This document shows positions 15,219 through 56,762 of a stretch of DNA of 64,000 bases, piece after piece (within the stretch, counting starts at the first letter, position 1; every line of letters starts with the position of its first letter). Origin of the DNA: Streptomyces sp. CB02009 (GTDB lineage Bacteria > Actinomycetota > Actinomycetes > Streptomycetales > Streptomycetaceae); NCBI RefSeq assembly GCF_001905825.1, contig NZ_LIVV01000005.1, forward strand, positions 720,802 through 784,801, read 5' to 3'. A model generated the notes under the pieces. The model made no database searches, was not told where the DNA came from, and saw nothing but the letters and a program-made list of their open reading frames with translations. A program made the position numbers and the translations under genes.

Positions 15219-15219
<1 letters not shown>
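14539..15219 (-). CDS. Maleylpyruvate isomerase family (mycothiol-dependent, DinB-like) protein
   Basis: 226 aa. The N-terminal four-helix metal domain has WTARQVLAHCGAAL and VHAGDVREAFG (His and Asp ligands), typical of the TIGR03083/maleylpyruvate isomerase N-terminal family; a C-terminal domain of about 90 residues follows (TFRGDAATLIRIYAGR). Relatives use mycothiol as a cofactor or bind metal without a known reaction. The start ATGATG shares its first base with the TGA of ahcY (TGATGATG), so it is translationally coupled to the methyl-cycle genes. Possibly a detoxification or isomerisation step; uncertain. Confidence 0.75.
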
Positions 15220-16620
<1,401 letters not shown>

Positions 16621-16628
<8 letters not shown>

Positions 16629-17496
16629 GGACAACGCTCCTCGCGCTCATGATGGTTCGGTGGATTTCCAGGGCCGCCGTCGACCTGTTCAGCGTGATGT
16701 GGTGCAGGCCCGGCGCGCCCTCGTCGAGCAGCCGCAGGCCCATCGCGGTCGCGTGCTCGACGCCGATGCGGTACGCCGCCGCCGGGTCGTCCTTCGCCGC
16801 CTCCAGGCGGTGCGCCAGGTCCTCGGGGAACGCGGCGTCGCTGAGCTCCGCGAAGCGCCGGATCTGGCGTACGTCGGTGGCCGGCATGATCTCCGGGATG
16901 ATCGGGGTGTCGCAGCCGGCGGCCGCGACGCGGTCCCGCAGCCGCAGGTAGTCCTCCGGGTCGAAGAACATCTGGGTGATGGCGTAGTCGGCGCCCGCCC
17001 GGCACTTGGCCACGAAGTGGGCCAGGTCGTCGGCCGGTCCCGCCGACCTGGGGTGGCCCTCGGGGAAGGCCGCCACCCCGATCCGGAAGTCGCCCAGCGA
17101 CCTGACCAGCGCGACGAGTTCATGGGCGTACGTGAATCCCCGCGGGTGCGGTGTCCACGGGCCGCGCGGGTCGCCGGGCGGGTCGCCGCGCAGGACCAGG
17201 ACGTCGCGCACCCCGGCGTCGGCGTACGCGCCGATGATCGCCCGCAGTTCGGCGACGGAGTGCCCGACGGCCGTCAGATGGGCGACCGGGCGCAGGGTCG
17301 TCTCGGCCGCGATCCGCTTGGTCACCTCGATGGTCCGGTCGCGGGACGAGCCGCCCGCGCCGTACGTCACGGAGACGAAGTCCGGGGACAGGGCCTCGAC
17401 CCGGCGGATCGCCTCCCACAGGGTCCGCTCGCCGCGCTCGCTCTTCGGCGGGAAGAACTCGAAGGAGAACGTCGGGTCCACGGGGGTCGGTCTCAT
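16621..17496 (-). CDS. metF: Methylenetetrahydrofolate reductase
   Basis: 291 aa TIM-barrel flavoprotein. [10 protein letters not shown] at the N-terminus, [22 protein letters not shown], and FAITQMFFD-type segment ([15 protein letters not shown]) followed by PEIMPATD are conserved MetF marks. Makes 5-methyl-THF, the methyl donor of MetH encoded just upstream. ATG overlaps the metH stop as ATGA; its own stop overlaps ahcY. Length and motifs are complete, so it is probably functional. Confidence 0.96.
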
Positions 17497-20400
17497 CTGC
17501 GGCCTCCCGCGTTGAAGTAGCTCGCCTCGGGGTGGTGGAGGACGATCGCGTCCGTCGACTGCTCGGGGTGCAGTTGGTACTCCTCGGACAGCTCCACCCC
17601 GATCCGCTCCGGGCGCAGCAGCGCGGCGATCTTCGCCCGGTCCTCCAGGTCGGGGCAGGCCGGGTAGCCGAGCGAGTAGCGGCAGCCCTGGTACTCGGTG
17701 CGGAGCATGCCGTCCAGGGACGCCGGCTCCGACGAGCCCGCGATGCCCCAGTCGGCGCGCACCCGGGCGTGCCAGTACTCGGCCAGCGCCTCCGCCAACT
17801 GGACGGAGAGCCCGTGGAGTTCGAGGTAGTCGCGGTAGGCGTCGGCGGCGAAGAGCCGCGCCGTCTCCTCGCCGATCCGGGAGCCGACGGTGACCACCTG
17901 CATGGCGACGGCGTCGATCTCGCCGGAGTCCTCCGCGCGGTGGAAGTCGGCCAGGCAGAGGCGGCGGCCCCGCTGCTGGCGGGGGAAGGAGAAGCGGGTC
18001 CGCTCGCCTCCGTCCTCGTCCAGGACGATCAGGTCGTCGCCCTTGGACACACAGGGGAACCAGCCGTGGACGACGGCCGCTTCGAGGAGGTGGTCGGTCT
18101 GGAGGCGGTCGAGCCAGGCGCGCAGCCGCGGCCTGCCCTCGGTCTCGATGGTCTCGGCGTCCTTGAGGCCCCACTGGCCCTTGAAGAGGGCGGTCTCGTC
18201 GAGCCAGGAGGCGTACTCGGCGAGCTGGATGCCCTTGACGACCCTGGTCCCGAGGAAGGGGGGCTCGGGTACCGGGTTGTCGGCGGCGACGTCGGAGCGG
18301 CCGGCCGGCTCGGGTTCCCGGACCTCGGCCGCGAGCAGCGGGGTCGCGCGTTTCGGCACGCGGCGCTGTTTGAGCGGGGGGAGTACGGCTCCGGGGACGC
18401 CGCGCTTGACGCCCATGAGGGCGTCCATGAGACGCAGGCCCTCGAAGGCGTCGCGGGCGTAGCGGACCTCGCCCTGGTAGATCTCGTGGAGGTCCTGTTC
18501 GACGTACGCCCTGGTGAGGGCGGCGCCGCCGAGGATCACGGGGTACTTGGCGGCCAGCTCGCGCTGGTTCAGCTCCTCCAGGTTCTCCTTCATGATCACG
18601 GTGGACTTCACGAGGAGGCCGGACATGCCGATCACGTCGGCGCTGTGCTCCTCGGCGGCTTCCAGGATCGCGGAGACGGGCTGCTTGATGCCGATGTTGA
18701 CGACGTTGTAGCCGTTGTTGGAGAGGATGATGTCGACGAGGTTCTTGCCGATGTCGTGGACGTCGCCGCGCACGGTGGCGAGCACGATCGTGCCCTTGCC
18801 GACCCCTCCCTCGCCGTCGGCCGTTCTCTCCATGTGCGGTTCCAGATGGGCCACCGCCGTCTTCATGACCTCGGCGGACTGGAGCACGAACGGCAGCTGC
18901 ATCTGGCCCGAGCCGAACAGCTCGCCGACCGTCTTCATGCCGTCGAGCAGGATCTCGTTGACGATCTCCAGAGCGGGGCGCCCGGTCAGGGCCGAGTCCA
19001 GGTCCGCCTCAAGACCGTTCTTCTCGCCGTCGATGATCCGCCGCTTCAGGCGCTCGTCCAGCGGCAGCGCGAGGAGCTCCTCGGTCTTGCCCGCCTTCAG
19101 GGACTTCGCCGTCGCGCCCTCGAACATCTCCAGGAAGCGCTGGAGCGGGTCGTAGCCCTCCCGGCGGCGGTCGTGGATCAGATCGAGCGCGACCTCCACC
19201 TGCTCCGGTTCCAGGCGGGCGATCGGCAGGATCTTCGAGGCGTGGACGATCGCCGAGTCCAGGCCCGCCTTGACGCACTCGTCGAGGAAGACCGAGTTGA
19301 GGACGATCCGCGCGGCCGGGTTCAGACCGAACGAGATGTTGGAGAGGCCCAGGGTGGTCTGCACGTCCGGGTGGAGCCGCTTGAGCTCGCGGATCGCCTC
19401 GATCGTGTGGATGCCGTCCCTGCGGGACTCCTCCTGACCGGTGCAGATGGTGAACGTGAGGGTGTCGATCAGGATGTCCGACTCCCTGATCCCCCAGTTC
19501 CCCGTGAGGTCCTCGATGAGCCGCTCGGCGACGGCCACCTTGTGCGCGACGCTGCGGGCCTGGCCCTCCTCGTCGATGGTCAGCGCCATCAGGGCCGCGC
19601 CGTGCTCCTTCGCCAGGGCCGTGACCTGCGCGAAGCGGGACTCGGGCCCGTCGCCGTCCTCGTAGTTGACGGAGTTGACGACCGCCCGGCCGCCGAGCTT
19701 CTCCAGACCCGCCCGCAGCACCCCGGTCTCCGTCGAGTCGAGGACGATCGGCAGCGTCGAGGCCGTCGCGAACCGGCCGGCCAGCTCCGCCATGTCGGCG
19801 ACGCCGTCGCGGCCCACGTAGTCCACGCACAGGTCGAGGAGGTGCGCGCCCTCGCGGATCTGGTCCCGCGCCATCTCGACGCAGTCGTCCCAGCGGCCGT
19901 CGAGCATCGCCTCGCGGAACTTCTTCGAGCCGTTGGCGTTGGTGCGCTCGCCGATCGCCAGGTACGCGGTGTCCTGGCGGAACGGCACATGGCTGTAGAG
20001 CGAGGACGCGCCCGGCTCCGGCTCGGGCCGCCGGTCGAGGACGGCCGCGCCCCGCACCCGCTCCACGATCTCCCGCAGGTGCTCCGGGGTCGTACCGCAG
20101 CAGCCGCCGACCAGCGCGGGGCCGTACTCGCGGACGAACGCCTCCTGCGCGTCGGCCAGTTCGGCCGGCGACAGCGGGTAGTGGGCGCCGTCGGAGGTGA
20201 GGACGGGCAGGCCGGCGTTGGGCATGACCGAGATCGGGACGCGGGCGTGCCGGGAGAGGTGCCGCAGGTGCTCGGCCATCTCCGCCGGGCCCGTCGCGCA
20301 GTTCAGCCCGATCATGTCGATGCCGAGCGGCTCCAGGGCGGTCAGCGCCGCGCCGATCTCGGAGCCGAGCAGCATCGTGCCGGTCGTCTCCACGGTGACC

Positions 20401-20978
20401 TGCACGATGACGGGCAGGTCCACGCCGACCCAGTCCAGGGCCCGGCGGGCGCCGATGACGGCCGCCTTCGTCTGGAGGAGGTCCTGCGAGGTCTCGATGA
20501 GCAGGGCGTCCGCGCCGCCCCGGACCAGGCCCTCCGCGTTCTGCTGGAAGGCGTCCCGCAGCGGCTCGTACGTGACGTGGCCGAGAGTCGGCAGCTTCGT
20601 CCCGGGGCCCATGGAGCCGAGGACCCAGCGGGGGCGCCCGTCGGCGGCCGTGTGCGCGTCCGCCGCGGCGCGGGCGATCCGGGCACCGGCCTCGGACAGC
20701 TCGTACACCTGGTGCTCGATGCCGTACTCGGCGAGCGCGGCCAGGTTCGCCCCGAAGGTGTTGGTCTCGACGCAGTCCACGCCCACCGAGAAGTAGGCGT
20801 CGTGGACGGAGGCGACGATGTCGGGGCGGGTCAGGTTGAGGATCTCGTTGCAGCCCTCGAGGTTCCGGAAGTCCTCCATCGTCGGGTCGGCGGCCTGGAG
20901 CATCGTGCCCATCGCCCCGTCGGCCACCACGACCCGCCGCGCGAACTCCTCCCGCAGGGAACTCCGTACGACGGTCAT
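17493..20978 (-). CDS. metH: Cobalamin-dependent methionine synthase
   Basis: 1161 aa, the full four-module protein. Homocysteine-binding domain with [18 protein letters not shown] and the zinc pair [11 protein letters not shown]; folate (pterin) domain beginning [15 protein letters not shown]; cobalamin-binding domain with the DVHDIGKN axial-His motif and [11 protein letters not shown]-terminal SAM reactivation domain with [12 protein letters not shown] 20978 has GGGGG seven bases upstream and overlaps the adenosine kinase stop as ATGA. No cobalamin riboswitch is visible, as expected for an internal operon gene; control would come from the operon promoter. Confidence 0.97.
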
Positions 20979-21958
20979 GTGAGCCCCCTCAGACGGGTGA
21001 CGAGCGTGGCGGTGCACCCGACGCCGTACGTCGTCCTGATCCGGTCCAGGAGCGGATCCCGGTGCAGCCGGTACTCCTGCGTCCCGACGTAGTCGAGGAC
21101 GGTCGCGGCCACGGCGCAGCCCAGCTGCGCCGCGCACCGCTCCGGGACGCCCCACAGCCAGCCGGCCAGGAACCCGGACCGGAAGGCGTCCCCGACCCCG
21201 GTCGGGTCGACGACCGCCGCGACCTCCACGGCCGGCACGGCGAGCGGCTCGCGGCCCTCGCCCCGGATGCGGACGCCGGCCTCGCCGTGGGTGGTGACCC
21301 AGGCGCCGACCCGGCGCAGCACGTCCGCCTCGGTCCAGCCGGACTTCTCCAGGAGGAGCGCCGTCTCGTACTCGTTGGTGAACAGGAACCGCGCCCCGTC
21401 CACCAGCTCCCGCACCTGCGCGCCGTCGAGCCGCGCCAGCTGCTGCGACGGATCGGCGGCGAAGGGGATTCCCAGGTCACGGCAGGTGCGGGTGTGCCGC
21501 AGCATGGCCTCGGGGTCGTCCGGGGAGACCAGGACCAGTTCCAGCCTGCCGGTGCGCGCCACGACCTCCCGCAGGTCGATCTCGTGCGCCTCGGCCATCG
21601 CCCCCGCGTAGAAGGTGGCGATCTGGTTCTGGGCCCGGTCGGTCGTACAGACGAACCGGGCGGTGTGGAGCGACTCGCTGACGCGCACCGAGTCGGTGTC
21701 CACACCGTGGTCCTTCAGCCAGACCCGGTACGGCTCGAAGTCGGCGCCGACCGCGCCCACGAGGGCGGGACGGAGGCCGAGGGCACCGAGTCCGAAGGCG
21801 ATGTTCGCTGCCACTCCGCCACGCCTGACCTCCAGGTTGTCGGCGAGGAACGACAGGGAGACCCGGTCGAGCCGGTCGGCGAGCAGCTGCTCGCTGAACC
21901 AGCCGGGGAAGGTCATCAGATGGTCGGTCGCGATGGATCCCGTGACAGCGATACGCAT
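20975..21958 (-). CDS. adoK: PfkB-family carbohydrate kinase, probable adenosine kinase
   Basis: 327 aa ribokinase-fold enzyme. It starts MRIAVTGSIATDHLM and contains RRGGVAANIAFGLG, ADPSQQLARL and the catalytic DPTGVGDAFRSGF. The pattern follows the actinobacterial adenosine kinase (Mycobacterium AdoK) closely. It would phosphorylate adenosine released by AhcY, pulling SAH hydrolysis forward. Lies 5 bp after metK and overlaps metH by 4 bp, which supports that role. Substrate assignment is by context and motif, not by assay. Confidence 0.85.
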   Translation of the reverse strand: MRIAVTGSIATDHLMTFPGWFSEQLLADRLDRVSLSFLADNLEVRRGGVAANIAFGLGALGLRPALVGAVGADFEPYRVWLKDHGVDTDSVRVSESLHTARFVCTTDRAQNQIATFYAGAMAEAHEIDLREVVARTGRLELVLVSPDDPEAMLRHTRTCRDLGIPFAADPSQQLARLDGAQVRELVDGARFLFTNEYETALLLEKSGWTEADVLRRVGAWVTTHGEAGVRIRGEGREPLAVPAVEVAAVVDPTGVGDAFRSGFLAGWLWGVPERCAAQLGCAVAATVLDYVGTQEYRLHRDPLLDRIRTTYGVGCTATLVTRLRGLT

Positions 21959-21963
21959 GGCCC

Positions 21964-23199
21964 TCAGCCCTCCTGTCCCGGATGAGCCGCCTTCTGCAGG
22001 GCCTCCACGCGGTCCGTGCGCTCCCAGGTGAACTCGGGGAGCTCGCGGCCGAAGTGGCCGTACGCCGCGGTCTTCGCGTAGATCGGCCGCTTGAGGTCCA
22101 GGTCACGGATGATCGCCGCGGGCCGCAGGTCGAAGACCGCGCCGACGGCCTCCTGGATCCGCTCGTCCGGCAGGGTGCCGGTGCCGAAGGTCTCCACGAA
22201 GAGACCGACCGGCTCGGCCTTGCCGATGGCGTACGCCACCTGCACCTCGCAGCGGCGGGCGAGGCCGGCCGCGACGACGTTCTTCGCGACCCAGCGCATC
22301 GCGTACGCCGCCGACCGGTCGACCTTCGACGGGTCCTTGCCGGAGAAGGCGCCGCCGCCGTGCCGGGCCATCCCGCCGTACGTGTCGATGATGATCTTCC
22401 GGCCGGTGAGTCCGGCGTCGCCCATCGGGCCGCCGACCTCGAACCGCCCGGTCGGGTTGACCAGGAGCCGGTAGCCGTCGGACTCCAGGCTGACGCCCTC
22501 CTCGACCAGCTCCTTGAGGACGTGCTCCACGACGTACTCGCGCACGTCCGGGGTGAGCAGGCCCTCGACGGAGATGTCGGCCGCGTGCTGCGAGGAGACG
22601 ACGACCGTGTCGAGGCGGACCGGGCGGTCCCCGTCGTACTCGATGGTGACCTGGGTCTTCCCGTCCGGGCGCAGGTAGGGCACGGTGCCGTCCCTGCGGA
22701 CCTCGGTGAGGCGGCGGGAGAGCCGGTGGGCGAGCGCGATCGGCAGCGGCATCAGCTCGGCCGTGTCGTCGCAGGCGTAGCCGAACATCAGGCCCTGGTC
22801 GCCGGCGCCCTGCGCGTCGAGCGCGGCGTCCTCTCCCGTCCGGGGGCGCCCCTCCACCCGGGCCTCGTACGCCGTGTCCACGCCCTGCGCGATGTCCGGG
22901 GACTGGGCGCCGATGGACACCGACACGCCGCAGGAGGCGCCGTCGAAGCCCTTCGCGGAGGAGTCGTAGCCGATGTCGAGGACGGCCTCGCGCACCAGCT
23001 TCGCTATCGGCGCGTACGCGGTCGTGGTGACCTCGCCGGCGATGTGCACGAGACCCGTGGTGATCAGGGTCTCCACGGCGACCCGCGAGGACGGGTCCTC
23101 GGCGAGCAGGGCGTCGAGGATGGTGTCGCTGATCCGGTCGGCGATCTTGTCGGGGTGTCCCTCGGTCACCGACTCCGAGGTGAAGAGGCGGCGGCTCAT
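21964..23199 (-). CDS. metK: S-adenosylmethionine synthetase
   Basis: 411 aa. The three-domain enzyme is complete: [19 protein letters not shown] at the N-terminus, the ATP-binding hexapeptide GAGDQG, the P-loop-like [19 protein letters not shown] and a C-terminal YGHFGRE. Makes SAM from Met and ATP. ATG overlaps the acyl carrier protein stop (ATGA), coupling SAM supply directly to the carrier-protein genes. The chromosome must have another metK elsewhere if this one is cluster-dedicated; that is not visible here. Confidence 0.97.
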
Positions 23200-23447
23200 G
23201 CCTGGGCCTCCACCGGGGTCTTGAAGAAGTGCTGCTCGATGGCGGCGAGGGTGCGGATGGACTCGACCTCGAGGGTCTCCATCTGGATCGCCGTGCCGCT
23301 CTCCTGCTCCAGGAGGAAGACGAACTCGACGAAGGACAGCGAGTCGATGAGCCGGTTCTCGATCAGGTCGAGGTCGGACGCGATGTCGTCGCGCTCGGGG
23401 TGACGCTCGAGGATCCAGTTCTTCACCGTCTGCAGGCCGTCGGCCAT
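23196..23447 (-). CDS. Acyl/aminoacyl carrier protein
   Basis: 83 aa. The phosphopantetheine site is [20 protein letters not shown], with DSL around the serine near residue 36, then an acidic helix III and [20 protein letters not shown] precedes the ATG. The neighbours are holo-ACP synthase (19 bp upstream) and an aminoacyl:carrier-protein ligase, so the likely cargo is an amino acid rather than a fatty acid (inference). Overlaps metK by 4 bp. Confidence 0.88.
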
Positions 23448-23466
23448 GGTTGCTCTCCTTTAGCTG

Positions 23467-23904
23467 CTAAGGGATGGGTGTGGCGGGCGCGATGATCGGT
23501 GCGGCCACCGCCACCGCGTAGTCCACGTCGTGGCTGATGGACACGGTGATCTCGGTGATGCCGGAGGCGGCGGCCATCTCGGCGGCCGCCCGGTGCAGTT
23601 CCACGAGCGGCCAGCCGCCCTCGGAACGCCGCACCACGATGTCCGGCCAGGGCAGGAACCTGCCTCTGACCCGCAGGGTCTTGAAGGCCGCTTCCTTGGC
23701 CGCGATCCGCCCGCACAGGCTCAGTACGTCGAGCCCGGAGGAGGTACGGCAGTCGGCGAGCTCGCCGGGGGTGAGCATCCGCTCGAAGAACCGCTCCCCG
23801 TACTGGGCGAGGAGCCTGCGGACACGGTTGACGGACACGATGTCCATGCCGAGGTTCGCCCACCCCAGGCCGCCCGCCGGCGGGGCGGCGGGACGGGCCG
23901 GCAC
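23467..23904 (-). CDS. acpS: Holo-[acyl-carrier-protein] synthase (AcpS-type phosphopantetheinyl transferase)
   Basis: 145 aa. GMDIVSVNRVRRLL carries the first metal-binding Asp, GRIAAKEAAFKTLR the catalytic Glu-Lys motif, and ISHDVDYAVAVA ends the fold. Slightly longer at the N-terminus than the classical enzyme because it starts at GTG 23904, one base after the stop of the ligase gene; an ATG at 23847 (MDIVSV) would give the compact form. Most Streptomyces have acpS elsewhere; a cluster-borne copy suggests a dedicated partner for the adjacent carrier protein. Confidence 0.85.
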   Translation of the reverse strand: MPARPAAPPAGGLGWANLGMDIVSVNRVRRLLAQYGERFFERMLTPGELADCRTSSGLDVLSLCGRIAAKEAAFKTLRVRGRFLPWPDIVVRRSEGGWPLVELHRAAAEMAAASGITEITVSISHDVDYAVAVAAPIIAPATPIP

Positions 23905-23905
23905 G

Positions 23906-24805
23906 TCAGATCACCGGCCCGGCCGCGCCACTCGCACCGGCCCGCACGCGGGCGTTCGCGTCGAGCACCGCTGCGGTCGCCGCCTGCCAGCCGCCGTGGC
24001 GGCGGGTCAGCGCGGACAGCCAGCGTTCGAGGCCGAAGGCGACGCAGCTGGTGAAGGCCGGTCCGCCGGTCGACTCCAGGGTGATGGCGCAGCGGTCGCC
24101 GAAGAAGTTCCGGTGCGTGTTGACCGAGGCGATCGCCAGGTCCTCGTACAGGAACTCGTACTTCACCGGGGTGAGGCGCTGGAGCAGCGCCTTCGAGCCG
24201 CCCTTGTCGAAGAACGGGTCGCAGGCGGCCTCCCGGCGCAGCGGCAGGTCGAGCGCCGCGGCGAAGGACTGGATCCGGGTGGTGAAGTCGGCGAGGTGCG
24301 TCTCGGCGTGCTCGCGCGCGCCGATGGCGACGATCTCCCGCATGCGGAAGCCGAGTTGGCGCCGCATGCCCTCGTAGTGGGTCTCCTTGCGGAAGCACCA
24401 GGAGCAGATCGTGACGAGGGTGTCGTCGGCGACCCGGGTGCCCTGGTGGTCGAGGTAGACGGCGTAGCAGGACGCCGAGGGCAGTCCGAGGCCGGCCGGT
24501 TCGAGGGCGGCGGCGGGCCACTGCCCGTGCTCGCCGTCGAAGGGGGTGGTGAGGCGTCCTTCCAGGTCGAGCGGGGCGGCGAGGACGGCCTGGTGCGGGA
24601 AGTTGTCGTAGTAGTCCAGCTTCGCCAGGTCGGCGGCCGGCAGGAGCGGGGGCATGGTCATCGGGCGGGCGCCCGCGGTCACCCCCCAGCTCTCGAAGGT
24701 GTCGTCGAGGAGCCGCAGCAGGCGGGTCCCCTCCGGCCCGAGCGAGGGGAGGCCCCTCGTCGAGCCCACGTTCTCCCCGGCGTGCGCGGGGGTCGTCACG
24801 GTCAT
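23906..24805 (-). CDS. Aminoacyl:[carrier protein] ligase (class II aminoacyl-tRNA-synthetase-like)
   Basis: 299 aa. The protein lacks a tRNA-binding arm and keeps the catalytic core of a seryl-tRNA-synthetase-like fold. The zinc/substrate region reads ICSWCFRKETHYEGMRRQ followed by LGFRMREIVAIG, the signature of amino-acid:carrier-protein ligases described from Bradyrhizobium and relatives, which load Gly or Ala on the phosphopantetheine of a small carrier protein. FGLERWLSAL is class II motif 3. It directly precedes acpS and the carrier protein, giving a full loading set. Amino acid specificity cannot be read reliably from sequence. Confidence 0.85.
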   Translation of the reverse strand: MTVTTPAHAGENVGSTRGLPSLGPEGTRLLRLLDDTFESWGVTAGARPMTMPPLLPAADLAKLDYYDNFPHQAVLAAPLDLEGRLTTPFDGEHGQWPAAALEPAGLGLPSASCYAVYLDHQGTRVADDTLVTICSWCFRKETHYEGMRRQLGFRMREIVAIGAREHAETHLADFTTRIQSFAAALDLPLRREAACDPFFDKGGSKALLQRLTPVKYEFLYEDLAIASVNTHRNFFGDRCAITLESTGGPAFTSCVAFGLERWLSALTRRHGGWQAATAAVLDANARVRAGASGAAGPVI

Positions 24806-24847
24806 GATCTCTTCACCTCTCGGGTGGGAGGTCCGGTCCCCGGCCGC

Positions 24848-25741
24848 TCAGACGACGGGCAGGGTGTCGTCGGAGAAGATCCCGGTCTTCAGGAAGAAGG
24901 CGAGCGGCTTGCGGATCGCCTTGCGTTCGTGGGGGCGGCGGCTCTCGTCGGCGACCAGCGCGTTGCGCAGGGCCAGCGGGTCGGGGATGCCGGCGTCGCG
25001 GTACACGTGGGGGTTGTAGAGGGAGTTGACGCTGTAGACGACGTACCGCTTGAGGTACGCCTCCACCTCGCGGACCCGTTCGGCGCTCACCGCCTGGCAC
25101 ATCCGGCCGTACAGCAGGGAGACCAGCTCGCGCCCGAAGGCGATGTGCCGGGACTCGTCCTGGTGGTGGATGCGGTTGACCTCGCGGATGGTGTGGCAGA
25201 GGTCGGTGTCCTTCGCCATCCGGGCGTTGTAGTGGTCGACGAGCTCCTCGAAGAAGAGGATGCGGGTGAAGACGAGGAAGTTCTCGACCTCGGGCTCCCA
25301 GGCGGCGTCGGCCCGCATGGCGGTGGATCCGTAGATCTTGTGGCCGTAGCGGCGGCAGAACTCGGAGAAGAACCACATGTGCTCGTTCTCCTCACCGATG
25401 AAGTGGTGGAAGAAGTCCGACGGCACCTCGAAGCCGGGCATGTGGATGCGGCCGACGACCTCGATGAGGAGCTCGCGGATGCCGTGCACGTTGAGGCTGT
25501 AGAAGTTGATCGACTCCCACTTCGACAGGCGCTGAAGCGTTTCCTCGTCGAGGGCGTCGTAGTGCTCGGTGCCGTAGACGGTGAGCAGCTCCGGGGTCAT
25601 CCAGAAACGGTTCTCCTCCAGCGTCTCGGGCCACTGGAAGGTCTGGTACGGGTTGTAGTAGTCCTCGACGGAGCGCTCGCTGAGCCGCTCCAGGACCTCC
25701 ATGAACCGGTCGGTGACGGGCAGGGGGGCGGTGGCGCCCAT
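24848..25741 (-). CDS. AurF/CmlI-type non-haem di-iron N-oxygenase
   Basis: 297 aa. All di-iron ligands expected for the AurF fold can be placed: Glu in SKWESINFYS, ExxH in FIGEENEHMWFF, Glu in ILFFEELVDHY and HxxxExxH in RIHHQDESRHIAFG. AurF and CmlI oxidise an arylamine to a nitro group stepwise through hydroxylamine and nitroso stages; CmlI acts on a carrier-protein-bound substrate. Here the neighbour is an aminoacyl-carrier-protein loading set, so N-oxidation of a tethered amino acid is the most economical reading (inference). ATG 25741 has GGAGG seven bases upstream. Confidence 0.88.
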   Translation of the reverse strand: MGATAPLPVTDRFMEVLERLSERSVEDYYNPYQTFQWPETLEENRFWMTPELLTVYGTEHYDALDEETLQRLSKWESINFYSLNVHGIRELLIEVVGRIHMPGFEVPSDFFHHFIGEENEHMWFFSEFCRRYGHKIYGSTAMRADAAWEPEVENFLVFTRILFFEELVDHYNARMAKDTDLCHTIREVNRIHHQDESRHIAFGRELVSLLYGRMCQAVSAERVREVEAYLKRYVVYSVNSLYNPHVYRDAGIPDPLALRNALVADESRRPHERKAIRKPLAFFLKTGIFSDDTLPVV

Positions 25742-25766
25742 GATGGTTCCTCCAGGCTTCGGGTGT

Positions 25767-26810
25767 TCAGGGCCGCACTTCGTAGACCGCGTTCACCGGG
25801 GTCTCGGTGGCACGCCGCCAGCGGGTGAAGCCGGCCTCCTCCGCGATGGCCCGGAAGGCCTTCTCGCCGGAGTGGTTGCCGAGCGCGTGCGGGCCGCGCT
25901 GGGCGACCGCGACGGGCAGGCACATGACGGCGGACAGGGCCATGAACATGCGGGCGGCGGGCGTCTGCGCGTCGACGTCCTGCGGGGAGACGTTCGACTC
26001 GACGAGCATCCATGTCCCGTCCGCGTCCAGGGACTTGTGGACGTGCTGGGCGGCGGCGACCGGGTCGCCCATGTCGTGCAGGGCGTTGAAGAAGCAGACC
26101 AGGTCGTAGCCGGAGCCGGGGTAGTCGTCGGCCGACGCGACCTCGAAGACGACCCGCTCGGAGAGCCCCGCCTCCTCGGCGAGCTCCCGGGCGATCGAGA
26201 TGGCCTCCTCCGAGTAGTCGAAGCCGTGCACGACGGCGTTCGGGAAGGCCTTCGCGATGAGCAGCGTGGTGTGCCCGACGCCGCAGCCCACGTCGGCGAC
26301 GGTGCCGCCGCCGGCGAGCTTGTCGGTGACCTGGTGGAGGGCGGGCAGCCAGTCGGCGACGAGCTTGTGCTCGTACGTCGGCTGGAAGAAGGAGCCCATG
26401 CCGGTGTCGAGGGCCGCGTCGTGCTCGGCCCAGCCGACCCCGTCACCGGTGCGGTACGCCTCCACGAGCAGGTCCTCGGTGGCGTACAGCGCCTTGAGGG
26501 CGGTGAAGAACCCGGCGGCGTACGTGACGGCCTTCGGGTCCGCGAGCACCTCGACGTGGTCGGCGGGGAGCGTGTACGTGAGGGAGCTGGGGTGCCGCTC
26601 GACGTACCCGGCGGAGAGCTGGGCGTGCAGCCACTCCTCGATGTACCGCTCGTCCGTGCCGGTCGCCTCCGCGAGCGCGGCGGAGGTGAGCGGGCCCCGC
26701 TCGGCCAGCGCCCGGTAGAGGCCGAGGCGCTGTCCGAGGGAGACGGTGAGGCCGCGGACGGCGGCGCCGGCGTCGGTGATGACCTTCTGGTGGAAGTCGT
26801 GGGCGCTCAC
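25767..26810 (-). CDS. Class I SAM-dependent methyltransferase with N-terminal winged-helix/dimerisation domain
   Basis: 347 aa. The N-terminal ~90 residues form a winged-helix-like domain (RGPLTSAALAEATGTDERYI, EEWLHAQLSAGYVERH). The Rossmann part has VADVGCGVGHTTLLIAKAFP (motif I) and HGFDYSEEAISIAR. This layout is seen in O-methyltransferases and in Rv2258c-like proteins. GTG start at 26810; the GAGGGGG ribosome binding site lies in a 57-bp segment duplicated from the end of the preceding methyltransferase gene. Likely acts on a cluster intermediate. Confidence 0.85.
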   Translation of the reverse strand: MSAHDFHQKVITDAGAAVRGLTVSLGQRLGLYRALAERGPLTSAALAEATGTDERYIEEWLHAQLSAGYVERHPSSLTYTLPADHVEVLADPKAVTYAAGFFTALKALYATEDLLVEAYRTGDGVGWAEHDAALDTGMGSFFQPTYEHKLVADWLPALHQVTDKLAGGGTVADVGCGVGHTTLLIAKAFPNAVVHGFDYSEEAISIARELAEEAGLSERVVFEVASADDYPGSGYDLVCFFNALHDMGDPVAAAQHVHKSLDADGTWMLVESNVSPQDVDAQTPAARMFMALSAVMCLPVAVAQRGPHALGNHSGEKAFRAIAEEAGFTRWRRATETPVNAVYEVRP

Positions 26811-26855
26811 GCGGCCACCCCCTCGTAGCCGTTCGCGCCCGGCAGGTCGCAGGTG
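26799..26855. repeat. 57-bp exact direct repeat, copy 1 (start region of winged-helix methyltransferase)
   Basis: Identical to 26891-26947 with a 92-bp offset. It holds the last codons of the upstream methyltransferase (here untranslated), its ribosome-binding GAGGGGG and the GTGA junction that serves as the start of the downstream methyltransferase. 35 bp of unrelated sequence separates the copies. Confidence 0.95.
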
Positions 26856-26890
26856 CTGTGCTGACCCGGAGGACGACCCCCGGACCCCCG

Positions 26891-26947
26891 GTGGGCGCTC
26901 ACGCGGCCACCCCCTCGTAGCCGTTCGCGCCCGGCAGGTCGCAGGTG
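26891..26947. repeat. 57-bp exact direct repeat, copy 2 (3' end of TIGR00027-type methyltransferase)
   Basis: Same sequence as 26799-26855. In this copy the segment is coding: it ends the upstream methyltransferase with its TGA at 26899-26901. The duplicated GTGA junction indicates that the two genes once overlapped directly. Confidence 0.95.
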
Positions 26948-27747
26948 AACAGGAAGGACCGGGGCACCCGGGGGACCGAGCGGGCCGGTACCGGGTAGGG
27001 CCAGCGGCCGAAGTCGGCGCCGGCCTCACCGGGCTGCCTGACCTCGCGCACGGCCCAGCCGCAGTCGGCGAGCAGCACCTCGGGCTCCTCGGTGCCGAAG
27101 AGCCACGGGTTGCCGTCCTCGTCCAGGGCCTTCATGAACCCGCGGGCGAGCGGGTTCTCCAGGGCGGCTTGGGAGATGACGTCGCCGAGCAGCACGGAGC
27201 CGGGGGCGGCGTGGGCGGAGAGCGTCGATATGAGGGTCCGTACGGCCTGCTCGGGGAGGAAGAACAGCAGTCCCTCCACCACCCACAGGACGGGCTCCTC
27301 GCTCTTCCAGCCGGCCTCCTTGAGGGGGCCGGTCCAGTCCTGGGTGAGGTCGACGGGGACGGTGATCCGGTCGCGGCCGGCCGGCTTCGGCTCCTTCGCC
27401 AGCATCTCGGCCTTGGCCTCCAGGAGGGCCGGGCGGTCGAGCTCGTAGACGGTGACGCCGTCGGGCCAGGGCAGCCGGAAGAAGCGGGTGTCCATGCCGG
27501 CGGCGAGGAAGACGACCTGGCGGATGCCCCGCTCCTCCACCGCCCGGACGATGGCGCGGTCGAGGTAGGTGGTGCGGATGGCGAGGAACGGCACGGTGCC
27601 GCCGCCCGCGTAGCGCTCGAGCAGTTCGAAGCCGATCTGGTCGGCGACGGTGCGCGCGTAGGGATCGGCGAACAGCCGGTCCTCGCGCTCGGTCTCCAGG
27701 GCGCGCGCGGCGGCGGTCCACTGGGCGGTGCGGGATACGGCCTCCAC
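26899..27747 (-). CDS. SAM-dependent methyltransferase, TIGR00027/leucine carboxyl methyltransferase-like family
   Basis: 282 aa. Family marks are SRTAQWTAAARALETERED at the N-terminus, RTTYLDRAI, VVFLAAGMDTRFFRLPWP (SAM-binding, with the AGMDTR signature), VYELDRP and VVEGLLFFLP. Members O-methylate carboxylates or unknown small molecules. GTG 27747 is preceded by AAGGGGG. The gene is part of the leftward operon that starts with the MaoC-like gene 97 bp upstream. Confidence 0.87.
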   Translation of the reverse strand: MEAVSRTAQWTAAARALETEREDRLFADPYARTVADQIGFELLERYAGGGTVPFLAIRTTYLDRAIVRAVEERGIRQVVFLAAGMDTRFFRLPWPDGVTVYELDRPALLEAKAEMLAKEPKPAGRDRITVPVDLTQDWTGPLKEAGWKSEEPVLWVVEGLLFFLPEQAVRTLISTLSAHAAPGSVLLGDVISQAALENPLARGFMKALDEDGNPWLFGTEEPEVLLADCGWAVREVRQPGEAGADFGRWPYPVPARSVPRVPRSFLFTCDLPGANGYEGVAA

Positions 27748-27844
27748 AGGAGGTCCCCCTTCACTTCGGTGGATGTACGGGGCTTCCGGACGGGGTCCGG
27801 AGGTACGGACGGCCGTGTTCAGGGGCCCGACGAAGGACGGTTCG

Positions 27845-28384
27845 TCAGGCGCTCATGGCCGGGACACAGGTCTTGGCCGGTCGCGCGCAGGCGACGGGGT
27901 CCTCGGCCGCGGGCATCGACGACAGATGGTCGGCCTCGGAGTCGGCGGGGCGCCGGCGGAAGATGCTGTGCAGGATCATGCTGAACACGGCCGTCCCGTC
28001 GGAGGCCACCAGGGTGCACCGCGGTTTGACGGTGCCGGTGGCGGGATTGAACGGCGACGGGGTGGAGCCGAGGATCTCGACGCGTGCGGTGAGGACGTCG
28101 CCCGGGCGGACGGGCCGCAGGTAGCGGACCTCGTCGATGCCGGGCGAGCCCATACAGGCGCTGTAGGCGAGCAGTCCGTCGACGTAGCGGCGCATGAACA
28201 TCGCCTGGGTGTGGAACCCGCTCGCGATCAGTCCGCGGAACGGCGACCGCTCCGCGCGCGCGGGGTCCGTGTGGAAGGGCTGCGGATCGAAGCGCCTGCC
28301 GAACTCCAGCACCTCCTCCGCCGTGACGGTGACGGCGCCCAGCTCGTGGACGTCGCCGGGCCGGAAGTCCTCGAAGTAGCGCAT
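27845..28384 (-). CDS. MaoC-like (R)-specific hydratase/dehydratase domain protein
   Basis: 179 aa from ATG 28384, chosen because AGGGGG sits eight bases upstream; the longer frame has no such site. The hot-dog fold is indicated by FEDFRPGDVHELGAVTV and the hydratase motif FGRRFDPQPFHTDPARA (Asp and His in the usual places), then GFHTQAMFMR and VRYLRPVRPGDVLTARVEI. Usual role: reversible hydration of an enoyl thioester. First gene after the sigma-70 promoter. A C-terminal tail of ~30 residues with two Cys is unusual. Confidence 0.85.
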   Translation of the reverse strand: MRYFEDFRPGDVHELGAVTVTAEEVLEFGRRFDPQPFHTDPARAERSPFRGLIASGFHTQAMFMRRYVDGLLAYSACMGSPGIDEVRYLRPVRPGDVLTARVEILGSTPSPFNPATGTVKPRCTLVASDGTAVFSMILHSIFRRRPADSEADHLSSMPAAEDPVACARPAKTCVPAMSA

Positions 28385-28430
28385 CGTGCGCCCCCCTTGA
28401 CCTAGGAGTGGTATTTCCCTGGCACACACC

Positions 28431-28460
28431 AATCTACGAATCAGTCATTTATTTTGTCAA
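28431..28460 (-). promoter_or_regulatory. Sigma-70 (HrdB-type) promoter for the leftward biosynthetic/methyl-cycle operon
   Basis: On the minus strand TTGACA (28460-28455) is followed after 18 bases by TAGATT (28436-28431). The surrounding 60 bp are strikingly AT-rich for this genome. The start of the MaoC-like gene lies 47 bases beyond the -10, leaving room for an operator in the leader. Confidence 0.75.
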
Positions 28461-28483
28461 CCCAAAAGAAGGCCCAAGAGGTG

Positions 28484-29653
28484 CTATCCGAGGGCCTGTT
28501 CGGCGTCGGCCCACAGGTCCTCGACGTCCTCGATGCCGACCGACATCCGTACGAGCCCGGGGGCGATCCCCGCGGCCTCCAGGGCGGCCCCGTCGAGCTC
28601 CCGGTGGGACGTGGAGGCCGGATGGGTCACGAGCGTCTCCACGCCGCCGAGGGAGAGCGCGAGCCGGGCCACCCGTACGCGCTCGATGAAGTCCCGGCCG
28701 GCCTCCCGGCCCCCCGTGAGCTCGAACGACAGCAGCCCTCCGCCGCCGTCCAGCACCGCGCGGGCGCGCTCGTACGAGGGGTGCCCGGCGAGCCACGGGT
28801 AGTGGACGGCGGAGACGCGCGGGTGCGCGGCGAGCCGCTCGGCGAGGACCGCGGCGCCGGCGCAGTGCTCGCGCATCCGCAGCGGCAGGGTGGGTATCCC
28901 GCGCAGGGTCAGCCAGGCGGCGAACGGGTCGGCGCAGGCGCCCAGTTCGACCGTTCGGGGCCAGATCCGGCGGCGCAGCCCGTCGTCGGCGAAGACGGCG
29001 GCGCCGCCGAGGACGTCCGAGTGCCCGGAGAGGTACTTGGTGGTGGAGTGGACGACGATGTCGGCCCCGTGCTCCAGGGGGCGGCACAGGGCGGGCGAGG
29101 CGAGGGAGTTGTCGACGAGGCCGACCACCCCGAGGGCGCGGGCCGCGGCGAGCAGTCCCGGCAGGTCGGGGACCTGGCCGGTGGGATTGGCGATGGTCTC
29201 CAGGAGCAGCAGCCGGGTGGCCGGGTGAACGGCGGCGGCCTCGAACTCGGCCGGGTCGTCGCCGGAGATCCGTACGACCTCGATCCCGTACCGCTCGGCC
29301 AGGTCGGCGAGGACGGCATGGGTCCCGCCGTACAGGCAGCGCTGCGCCACCACGCGGTCGCCGGGCCGCAGGAGGGCGAGCAGGACTCCGCTGATCGCGC
29401 CCATCCCGGAGGCGAAGGCGATGGCGCCTGCGCCCCCCTCCAGCCCGGCGAGGGTCTGCTCCAGGGCCCGTACGGTCGGGTTGCCGCGGCGGCTGTAGAC
29501 GTACGACCCGTCGGGTCCCGCCATGGCGTCGGCGAGTGCGGCGGCGGACTCGAAGGCGAAGGCGGAGGACTGCACGAGGGGCACGGAGAGCGGCCGACTG
29601 CCGTGCGGGAGCGGCTCGTTGACGACATGGACGGCGCGGGTACCGAGTTCCAC
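28484..29653 (-). CDS. PLP-dependent trans-sulfuration enzyme (cystathionine gamma-synthase / methionine gamma-lyase type)
   Basis: 389 aa. Cys/Met-metabolism PLP family: VYSRRGNPTVRALEQTLAGL, ASGMGAISGVLLALL, RCLYGGTH, NTLASP-type segment (VDNSLASPALC), the PLP lysine in VVHSTTKYLSGHSD and SLGGVETLVTHPAS near the end. Could form cystathionine/homocysteine or release it by gamma-elimination; the exact reaction cannot be fixed. GTG 29653 has AAAGGA upstream. A terminator separates it from the exporter gene. In context, it could feed homocysteine to the methyl cycle or make a cluster precursor. Confidence 0.88.
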   Translation of the reverse strand: MELGTRAVHVVNEPLPHGSRPLSVPLVQSSAFAFESAAALADAMAGPDGSYVYSRRGNPTVRALEQTLAGLEGGAGAIAFASGMGAISGVLLALLRPGDRVVAQRCLYGGTHAVLADLAERYGIEVVRISGDDPAEFEAAAVHPATRLLLLETIANPTGQVPDLPGLLAAARALGVVGLVDNSLASPALCRPLEHGADIVVHSTTKYLSGHSDVLGGAAVFADDGLRRRIWPRTVELGACADPFAAWLTLRGIPTLPLRMREHCAGAAVLAERLAAHPRVSAVHYPWLAGHPSYERARAVLDGGGGLLSFELTGGREAGRDFIERVRVARLALSLGGVETLVTHPASTSHRELDGAALEAAGIAPGLVRMSVGIEDVEDLWADAEQALG

Positions 29654-54874: not shown

Positions 54875-55150
54875 TCAGCCTCCGGCGACGGCCGGGATGA
54901 TCGAGACGCCGGCGCCGGCCGGGGTGGCCGTCTCCAGGCCCTGCTCGAAGCGCACGTCGTCGTCGTTCACGTACACGTTGACGAAGCGGCGCAGCTTGCC
55001 CTGGTCGTCCAGGACGCGGGCGGCGATGCCCGTGTGGTTCTTCTCCAGGTCCGCGATGACCTCGGCGAGGGTCGCGCCCTCGGCCTGGACCTCGGACTGA
55101 CCGCCCGTGTAGGTGCGGAGGATGGTGGGGATGCGGACGTTCACGGCCAT
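54875..55150 (-). CDS. metO: MetO-type sulfur carrier protein (MoaD/ThiS/CysO family)
   Basis: 91 aa ubiquitin-like protein ending in Ala-Val-Ala-Gly-Gly; the terminal GG is the site of thiocarboxylation. NVRIPTILRTYTGGQSEV and RFVNVYVNDDDVRF are the marks of the CysO subgroup. In Streptomyces, MetO hands sulfur to MetM to form homocysteine from O-phosphohomoserine. It lies 14 bp behind the metM-like gene under the same SAM riboswitch, which fits that role better than cysteine or molybdopterin synthesis. Confidence 0.9.
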   Translation of the reverse strand: MAVNVRIPTILRTYTGGQSEVQAEGATLAEVIADLEKNHTGIAARVLDDQGKLRRFVNVYVNDDDVRFEQGLETATPAGAGVSIIPAVAGG

Positions 55151-55164
55151 GTCGTCGATACCTT

Positions 55165-56451
55165 TCAGAGGGCCAGGCCGGCGTCGCGGAACGCGTCCAG
55201 GCTCGGGCGGATGGTGACGGTCGCCTGAGAGGTGTCGGCCACCGCGTCCAGGGTCTTGAGTCCGTCGCCGGTGTTGAGGACGACGGTGGTGAGGTTCGGG
55301 TCGATCAGCCCGTTCTCGACGAGCTTCCTCGTGACGCCGACGGTCACGCCGCCCGCGGTCTCGGCGAAGATGCCCTCGGTCTGCGCGAGGAGCCTGATCG
55401 CGTCCACGACCTGCTCGTCGTTCACGTCCTCCACGGCACCGCCGGTGCGGCGGGCGATGTCGAGGACGTACGGGCCGTCGGCCGGGTTGCCGATGGCGAG
55501 CGACTTGGCGATCGTGTTCGGCTTCTGGGGCCGCACGACGTCGTGGCCGGCCTTGAAGGCCACCGACACCGGGGAGCAGCCCTCGGCCTGCGCGCCGAAG
55601 ATCTTGTACGGCTTGTCCTCGACGAGGCCCAGCTTGATGAGCTCCTGGAGACCCTTGTCGATCTTCGTGAGCTGGGAGCCGGAGGCGATCGGGATGACGA
55701 GCTGGTCGGGGATGACCCAGCCGAGCTGCTCGCAGATCTCGTACGCCAGCGTCTTGGAGCCCTCGCCGTAGTACGGGCGGAGGTTGACGTTGACGAAGCC
55801 CCAGCCCTCGCCCAGCGGGTCGCCGATGAGCTCGGAGCAGAAGCGGTTGACGTCGTCGTAGTTGCCCTCGATGGCGACGAGGTCACCGCCGTAGACACCG
55901 GCCATGACGACCTTGCCCTGCTCCAGGTCGTGCGGGATGAACACGCAGGAGCGGAAGCCGGCGCGGGCGGCGGCGGCGCCGACGGCGCCGGCCAGGTTGC
56001 CGGTGGAGGAGCAGGAGAGGGTGGTGAAGCCGAAGGCGCGGGCGGCCTCGATGGCCTGGGCGACGACCCGGTCCTTGAAGGAGTGGGTCGGGTTGCCGGA
56101 GTCGTCCTTGACGAAGAGCTTGCCGGGGGCGACGCCGATCTCGCGGGCGAGGTTGTCGGCCTGGACGAGCTTGGTCCAGCCCGGGTTCAGGTTGGGCTTG
56201 TCGGCGACGTCGGCGGGGACGGGCAGCAGCGGGGCGTAGCGCCAGATGTTGGCGGGGCCGGCCTCGATCTGCTTGCGCAGCGCCTCGGGGTCACCGGTGG
56301 GGAGGTCGTAAGCGACTTCGAGCGGTCCGAAACAGAGTTCGCAGGCGAAGATCGGACCGAGCGCGAAGACTTCACCGCATTCGCGACAGGAGAGTCCCGA
56401 CGCGGGACCGAGGTCGACCGAAGTGGCGGGGGTAACAGTCTGTACAGCCAT
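55165..56451 (-). CDS. metM: MetM-type homocysteine synthase (threonine synthase homologue)
   Basis: 428 aa PLP enzyme. N-terminal zinc-ribbon-like CxxC pairs (SCRECGEVF, CELCFGPLE), then the PLP Lys in SGNPTHSFKDRVV, SCSSTGNLAGAVGAAAA (phosphate loop) and GVTVGVTRKLVENGL. By sequence alone it would be called threonine synthase. The SAM riboswitch in its leader and the co-transcribed MoaD-like carrier instead match the Streptomyces MetM/MetO pair, which turns O-phosphohomoserine into homocysteine. ATG 56451 lies in CCTCCATGG, where GGAG/CTCC pairing can hide the ribosome binding site. Threonine synthase activity is not excluded. Confidence 0.88.
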   Translation of the reverse strand: MAVQTVTPATSVDLGPASGLSCRECGEVFALGPIFACELCFGPLEVAYDLPTGDPEALRKQIEAGPANIWRYAPLLPVPADVADKPNLNPGWTKLVQADNLAREIGVAPGKLFVKDDSGNPTHSFKDRVVAQAIEAARAFGFTTLSCSSTGNLAGAVGAAAARAGFRSCVFIPHDLEQGKVVMAGVYGGDLVAIEGNYDDVNRFCSELIGDPLGEGWGFVNVNLRPYYGEGSKTLAYEICEQLGWVIPDQLVIPIASGSQLTKIDKGLQELIKLGLVEDKPYKIFGAQAEGCSPVSVAFKAGHDVVRPQKPNTIAKSLAIGNPADGPYVLDIARRTGGAVEDVNDEQVVDAIRLLAQTEGIFAETAGGVTVGVTRKLVENGLIDPNLTTVVLNTGDGLKTLDAVADTSQATVTIRPSLDAFRDAGLAL

Positions 56452-56470
56452 GGAGGCGAGGCCCTTTCTC

Positions 56471-56611
56471 CTCATCTTTCCCATGACGAATTTTTCGCCA
56501 TGAGACGGATTTGGCACCTTCCCTAGCCGGGAGCCTCGCTGGAGGACGAGTAACCGACTGGAGGGTTGCCGGGGCTTCAACGGGCCGTTTCCCTCTGCCC
56601 CTCTGGATGAG
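56471..56611 (-). ncRNA. SAM-I (S-box) riboswitch upstream of metM
   Basis: On the minus strand the aptamer begins CTCATCCAGAGGGGCAGAGG and contains the conserved GGCCCGTTGAAGCCCCGGCA followed by ACC, then GGTGCCAA; the P1 stem closes as CTCATC (56611-56606) with GATGAG (56476-56471). The ribosome binding region GGAGAAAGGG follows directly, and CCTC/CTCC just before the ATG can mask it, which suggests control of translation rather than termination. SAM binding would switch metM-metO off. Confidence 0.9.
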
Positions 56612-56762
56612 CGGTATTCGATTGTGAAGCGCGGTGAACTTTCGTTCCTGCGCTCCGACGCGGGCGGCACCCCGACGTGCATCGGGCATCCGCGTTGTTC
56701 AAGACTGTAACCGAAGGCCCGGACGCTTGGACCGGCCGTCCGAACCGCGAGATGGAGATCAC

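Follow-up and report, generated by a model that had tools for sequence, protein, structure and literature searches.

Streptomyces albulus MetM, a threonine-synthase-like enzyme paired with the MoaD-like carrier MetO, is described as synthesising homocysteine; a SAM riboswitch precedes its gene, and a methionine auxotrophy phenotype is reported (Hasebe et al., 2024, AEM 90:e01247-24, as cited in PMC12172450). The arrangement of a SAM-I riboswitch with MetM/MetO is already published, and the core of the finding reported here is known. In Streptomyces lividans TK24, RF00162 precedes the two-gene unit SLIV_16930-SLIV_16925, listed in 2021 under 'threonine biosynthesis' (PMC8079986); judged by its label this would be the same pair as metM-metO, from which it differs in that annotation. 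CysO/CysM of Mycobacterium tuberculosis likewise combines a sulfur carrier with a PLP enzyme whose substrate is a phosphorylated amino acid, but there that substrate is O-phosphoserine and the product cysteine.

The locus analysed here lies in a 64 kb stretch of Streptomyces sp. CB02009 (the window) and is very probably the metM-metO operon of Streptomyces, under translational control by a SAM-I riboswitch and serving homocysteine synthesis. No difference from the S. albulus system is established; CB02009 additionally carries metY-metX. The features of the locus, all on the minus strand, are as follows:

54875..55150, minus strand: metO, a MoaD/ThiS/CysO-like sulfur carrier of 91 amino acids with a GG end (PF02597)
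55165..56451, minus strand: metM, a threonine-synthase-like PLP enzyme of 428 amino acids, predicted to be an O-phosphohomoserine-dependent homocysteine synthase
56438..56457, minus strand: candidate ArgR box spanning the start codon, matching the SCO4293 box at 19 of 20 positions
56463..56469, minus strand: Shine-Dalgarno sequence AGAAAGG, complement of the 16S rRNA 3' end CCUUUCU, 1 nt after P1
56469..56613, minus strand: SAM-I (S-box) riboswitch aptamer (RF00162, 76.5 bits)
56471..56476, minus strand: P1 3' strand, GAUGAG
56606..56611, minus strand: P1 5' strand, CUCAUC

A cmscan of the whole window with Rfam matched SAM-I at 56613-56469 on the minus strand with an E-value of 3.4e-16 and a score well above the RF00162 gathering threshold (44.4 bits), and no other Rfam family reached its gathering threshold in the 64 kb. 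The original prediction had placed a SAM-I riboswitch ahead of the PLP gene and proposed this covariance-model search, which bears it out; the end coordinate that it gave, 56611, is where the P1 5' strand begins. P1 forms by pairing of 56611-56606 with 56476-56471, both strands being placed by the cmscan alignment and occupying the same position in the collected Streptomycetaceae leaders. No second SAM-I was found in the 9.2 Mb genome, the copy ahead of metM being the only RF00162 match. The CB02009 leader is expected to bind SAM and to regulate in response to it.

Of 150 genus genomes, 148 carried SAM-I (in both misses metM lies at a contig start), as did all 131 sampled genomes of the family, covering 17 genera. 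The SAM-I core, metM and metO occurred together in 80 of 80 named Streptomyces loci, the best 80 matches of the contig scan being Streptomyces only and hence uninformative on other phyla. Of the 30 best SAM-I loci in the phylum, 19 immediately precede a metM (50-55% identical). Among 12 genomes tested from the same class only two encode a MetM above 600 bits, and SAM-I precedes both. Some family genomes hold a second SAM-I (loci L065, L066, L186 and L189, from genomes G098, G103, G602 and G579 respectively), which lies ahead of a short ORF and an NdgR-like regulator of the IclR family (Pfam IclR_C); its Shine-Dalgarno sequence, AGGAG, overlaps the P1 3' strand and a GTG start lies 8 nt past P1. 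In genome G554 the second copy (L187:101-237) has a very short ORF (MVRVNKHGSRIRFRRLF-like), not metM, downstream of it.

An over-long ORF would start metM at 56682; this was rejected in favour of the ATG at 56451, since the stretch separating P1 from the MAVQ-type start differs in length among relatives and the upstream ATGs fall out of frame, which marks them as spurious. That the PLP gene reads as a threonine synthase, as had been noted, is correct at the level of family models: its best NCBIfam is TIGR00260, threonine synthase (264 bits, cut-off 167), and its nearest solved structures by PDB sequence comparison are threonine synthases. The genome nevertheless encodes a dedicated ThrC (L007:4046-5116) in a canonical hom-thrC-thrB operon with a rho-like gene after it, and this ThrC matches MetM at 38% over the aligned part. 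MetM shares the fold family and the catalytic-lysine motif SFKDR with canonical ThrC (PDB 2d1f, 1uim, 2zsj), but carries an N-terminal CxxC-CxxC segment and PTHSFKDRV in place of PTGSFKDRG, with further conserved differences around the pocket motifs. Among 137 MetM-type sequences the motif was PTHSFKDRV in 131, PTHSFKDRP in two and PTNSFKDRV in two; the aligned ThrC sequences have PTGSFKDRG.

In a maximum-likelihood tree all SAM-linked MetMs formed one clade (support 100/100) separate from ThrC, and within the tree two genomes from other families each contain one MetM and one ThrC. MetM of CB02009 belongs with its genus-wide orthologues, has no adjoining hom or thrB and falls outside the ThrC clade; its orthology to Streptomyces MetM is drawn from genus-wide conservation and this tree. 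A third threonine-synthase-like gene in the genome (L008:5656-6792), divergent from a subtilisin-like protease gene, encodes PTLSFKDRG and a CxxC-CxxC N-terminus.

The CysO-like carrier said to lie 14 bp downstream of metM is indeed there: the metM-metO gap is 14 nt, and the protein belongs to the carrier family and ends in ...PAVAGG. Its nearest PDB sequences are M. tuberculosis CysO and another ThiS/MoaD protein (4n6e). MetO is 64% identical to the CysO of its own genome, which adjoins cysM in a pair separate from metM/metO; that CysO ends in GGMV, whereas MetO ends in a bare GG. Carrier C-termini in the loci read (L192, L193, L196-L199 and others) were PAVAGG (70), PAVAGGC (31) and PAVAGGA (1), so that many carriers have an extra Cys after the di-glycine. 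MetO of CB02009 would be thiocarboxylated and transfer its sulfur to MetM.

In Streptomyces coelicolor, SCO4293 and SCO4294 are taken here as the metM/metO orthologues by their labels, gene pairing and matching start-site sequence. The pair follows a sulfate-assimilation expression profile, rising transiently in the wild type, a response lost in an afsS mutant (PMC2267785). In EMSA, ArgR bound a fragment spanning the start codon of SCO4293, with no differential transcription seen (PMC5839063, Table 1); conservation of the ArgR box alone proves nothing, because the box is mostly coding sequence.

It is quite improbable that the enzyme is instead a second, or bifunctional, threonine synthase whose riboswitch ties threonine supply to SAM and so balances the branch point. 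The thrC family is its best curated match, above cut-off, and a homologue from a cyanobacterium (51.6% identity to S. albulus MetM) made threonine in vitro and gave only an unassigned peak in a MetM-type assay (PMC12172450); since that homologue makes threonine, a threonine-synthase side activity is possible. A threonine role sits poorly, however, with the dedicated ThrC, the different active-site motif and clade, the sulfur carrier sharing the operon in 80/80 loci, the sulfate-assimilation expression of SCO4293-4294 and the methionine phenotype published for S. albulus. The same ThrC, clade, motif, linkage and S. albulus genetics uphold the central claim of the original prediction, that the SAM-I riboswitch serves a MetM/MetO pair labelled threonine synthase. 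Its supporting argument, that SAM repression of threonine synthesis would make little sense, is weak by itself.

How the riboswitch of metM-metO acts can be judged from its leader. The start codon lies 15-21 nt beyond P1 in 106 Streptomycetaceae leaders, and in 103 of them duplex energies combined with spacing put the start of the Shine-Dalgarno sequence 0 nt past P1; the window has a 7-nt core beginning 1 nt after P1. Because the Shine-Dalgarno sequence starts 0-1 nt and the start codon 15-21 nt past P1, control of metM is most likely translational here. Action of the riboswitch on the same genes through intrinsic or Rho-dependent termination is unlikely: although several metM leaders of other actinobacterial classes contain, further downstream, a sequence complementary to the P1 3' strand that could serve as anti-terminator, together with a U-tailed hairpin (a terminator was scored in L101 and L104, not in L119), a terminator was looked for on the Streptomycetaceae metM leader strand and none was found, and in two further families of the class the Shine-Dalgarno sequence again adjoins or overlaps P1 with otherwise different flanks. 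The simplest reading of these leaders is that control may be transcriptional in the other classes and translational in that of Streptomyces. Another model considered was a long-range pseudoknot in which the P3 loop (GCGAGG) pairs with the spacer GGGCCUCGCC and sequesters the start region. This pseudoknot fitted well in Streptomyces, where most leaders show the complementarity with C-G/U-G/U-A variants; it failed on wider sampling, being missing in several other genera of the family though the spacer element persists, and pairing within P3 accounts for GCGAGG, which leaves the pseudoknot highly improbable.

Under translational control of metM-metO, plentiful SAM would bind the aptamer and stabilise P1, and with the Shine-Dalgarno sequence 1 nt beyond the helix the 30S subunit would be kept off and metM left untranslated; metO would be silenced likewise, by coupling or through the shared mRNA. 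At low SAM, P1 would open and the operon be translated, allowing MetM to make homocysteine by condensing O-phosphohomoserine with the sulfur held as thiocarboxylate at the C-terminus of MetO. Partition-function calculations showed no difference in Shine-Dalgarno sequestration between P1-on and P1-off states, with a P1-free constraint that probably blocked pairings of the P1 3' strand, and folding predictions, weak with the constraint as modelled, revealed no extra sequestering helix. Occlusion would therefore have to be steric. The adjacency of the Shine-Dalgarno sequence to P1 (0-1 nt), with the start codon 15-21 nt past the helix, is a new detail beyond the published systems.

The genome also contains the metY-metX pair, for which no Rfam leader was found. 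As a general statement, the earlier claim that housekeeping methionine synthesis is SAM-controlled does not hold, because the riboswitch then governs just one of two predicted homocysteine routes. The claim had been set against a cluster in the window (15219-29653) with its own AhcY, MetH, PfkB-type kinase, MetK and small carrier-like protein, as well as an amino acid:[carrier protein] ligase-like protein, a methyltransferase and a methionine gamma-lyase/cystathionine synthase-like enzyme. The Rfam scan gave no plausible leader on the cluster genes even at E<=1, but that they lack SAM-I is not very informative, because no gene other than metM has a SAM-I genome-wide. The housekeeping metH and metK of S. 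lividans have leaders RF03063 and RF03076 (PMC8079986), and a contrast in SAM control between housekeeping and cluster genes may hold, though not through SAM-I.

The genome further contains a SAM-IV riboswitch (113 bits, L281:4854-4970) before a SufS-family cysteine desulfurase (L281:5122-6657), a locus downstream of a trpD-like gene. Of 30 loci of the family, 26 show SAM-IV ahead of a cysteine desulfurase, an arrangement already annotated in S. lividans (PMC8079986), and one S. coelicolor expression class of only five genes includes both SCO2146 (cysteine desulfurase) and SCO4293 (PMC3293853). SCO2146 being presumably the SAM-IV gene, this pairing and the common expression class suggest that SAM controls the source of sulfur for the MetO route as well as the acceptor. 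We tentatively propose, as a possibility that remains doubtful, a SAM regulon of two riboswitches in which SAM-I shuts off MetM/MetO and SAM-IV shuts off the desulfurase that would supply the sulfur for MetO thiocarboxylation. If this is true, cysteine sulfur would reach homocysteine without cystathionine, and the tie of MetM/MetO to the SAM-IV-controlled desulfurase is testable.

The main value of the finding is a correction of annotation. Family models call the enzyme a threonine synthase and published Streptomyces annotation gives the riboswitch to threonine, and with such labels on both gene and riboswitch, flux models and regulatory maps can mislead on the amino acid concerned. PTHSFKDR, a neighbouring carrier ending in GG and a SAM-I riboswitch together make a simple sequence test for MetM, and its leaders point to a likely shift, within one orthologous leader, from a transcriptional to a translational platform.
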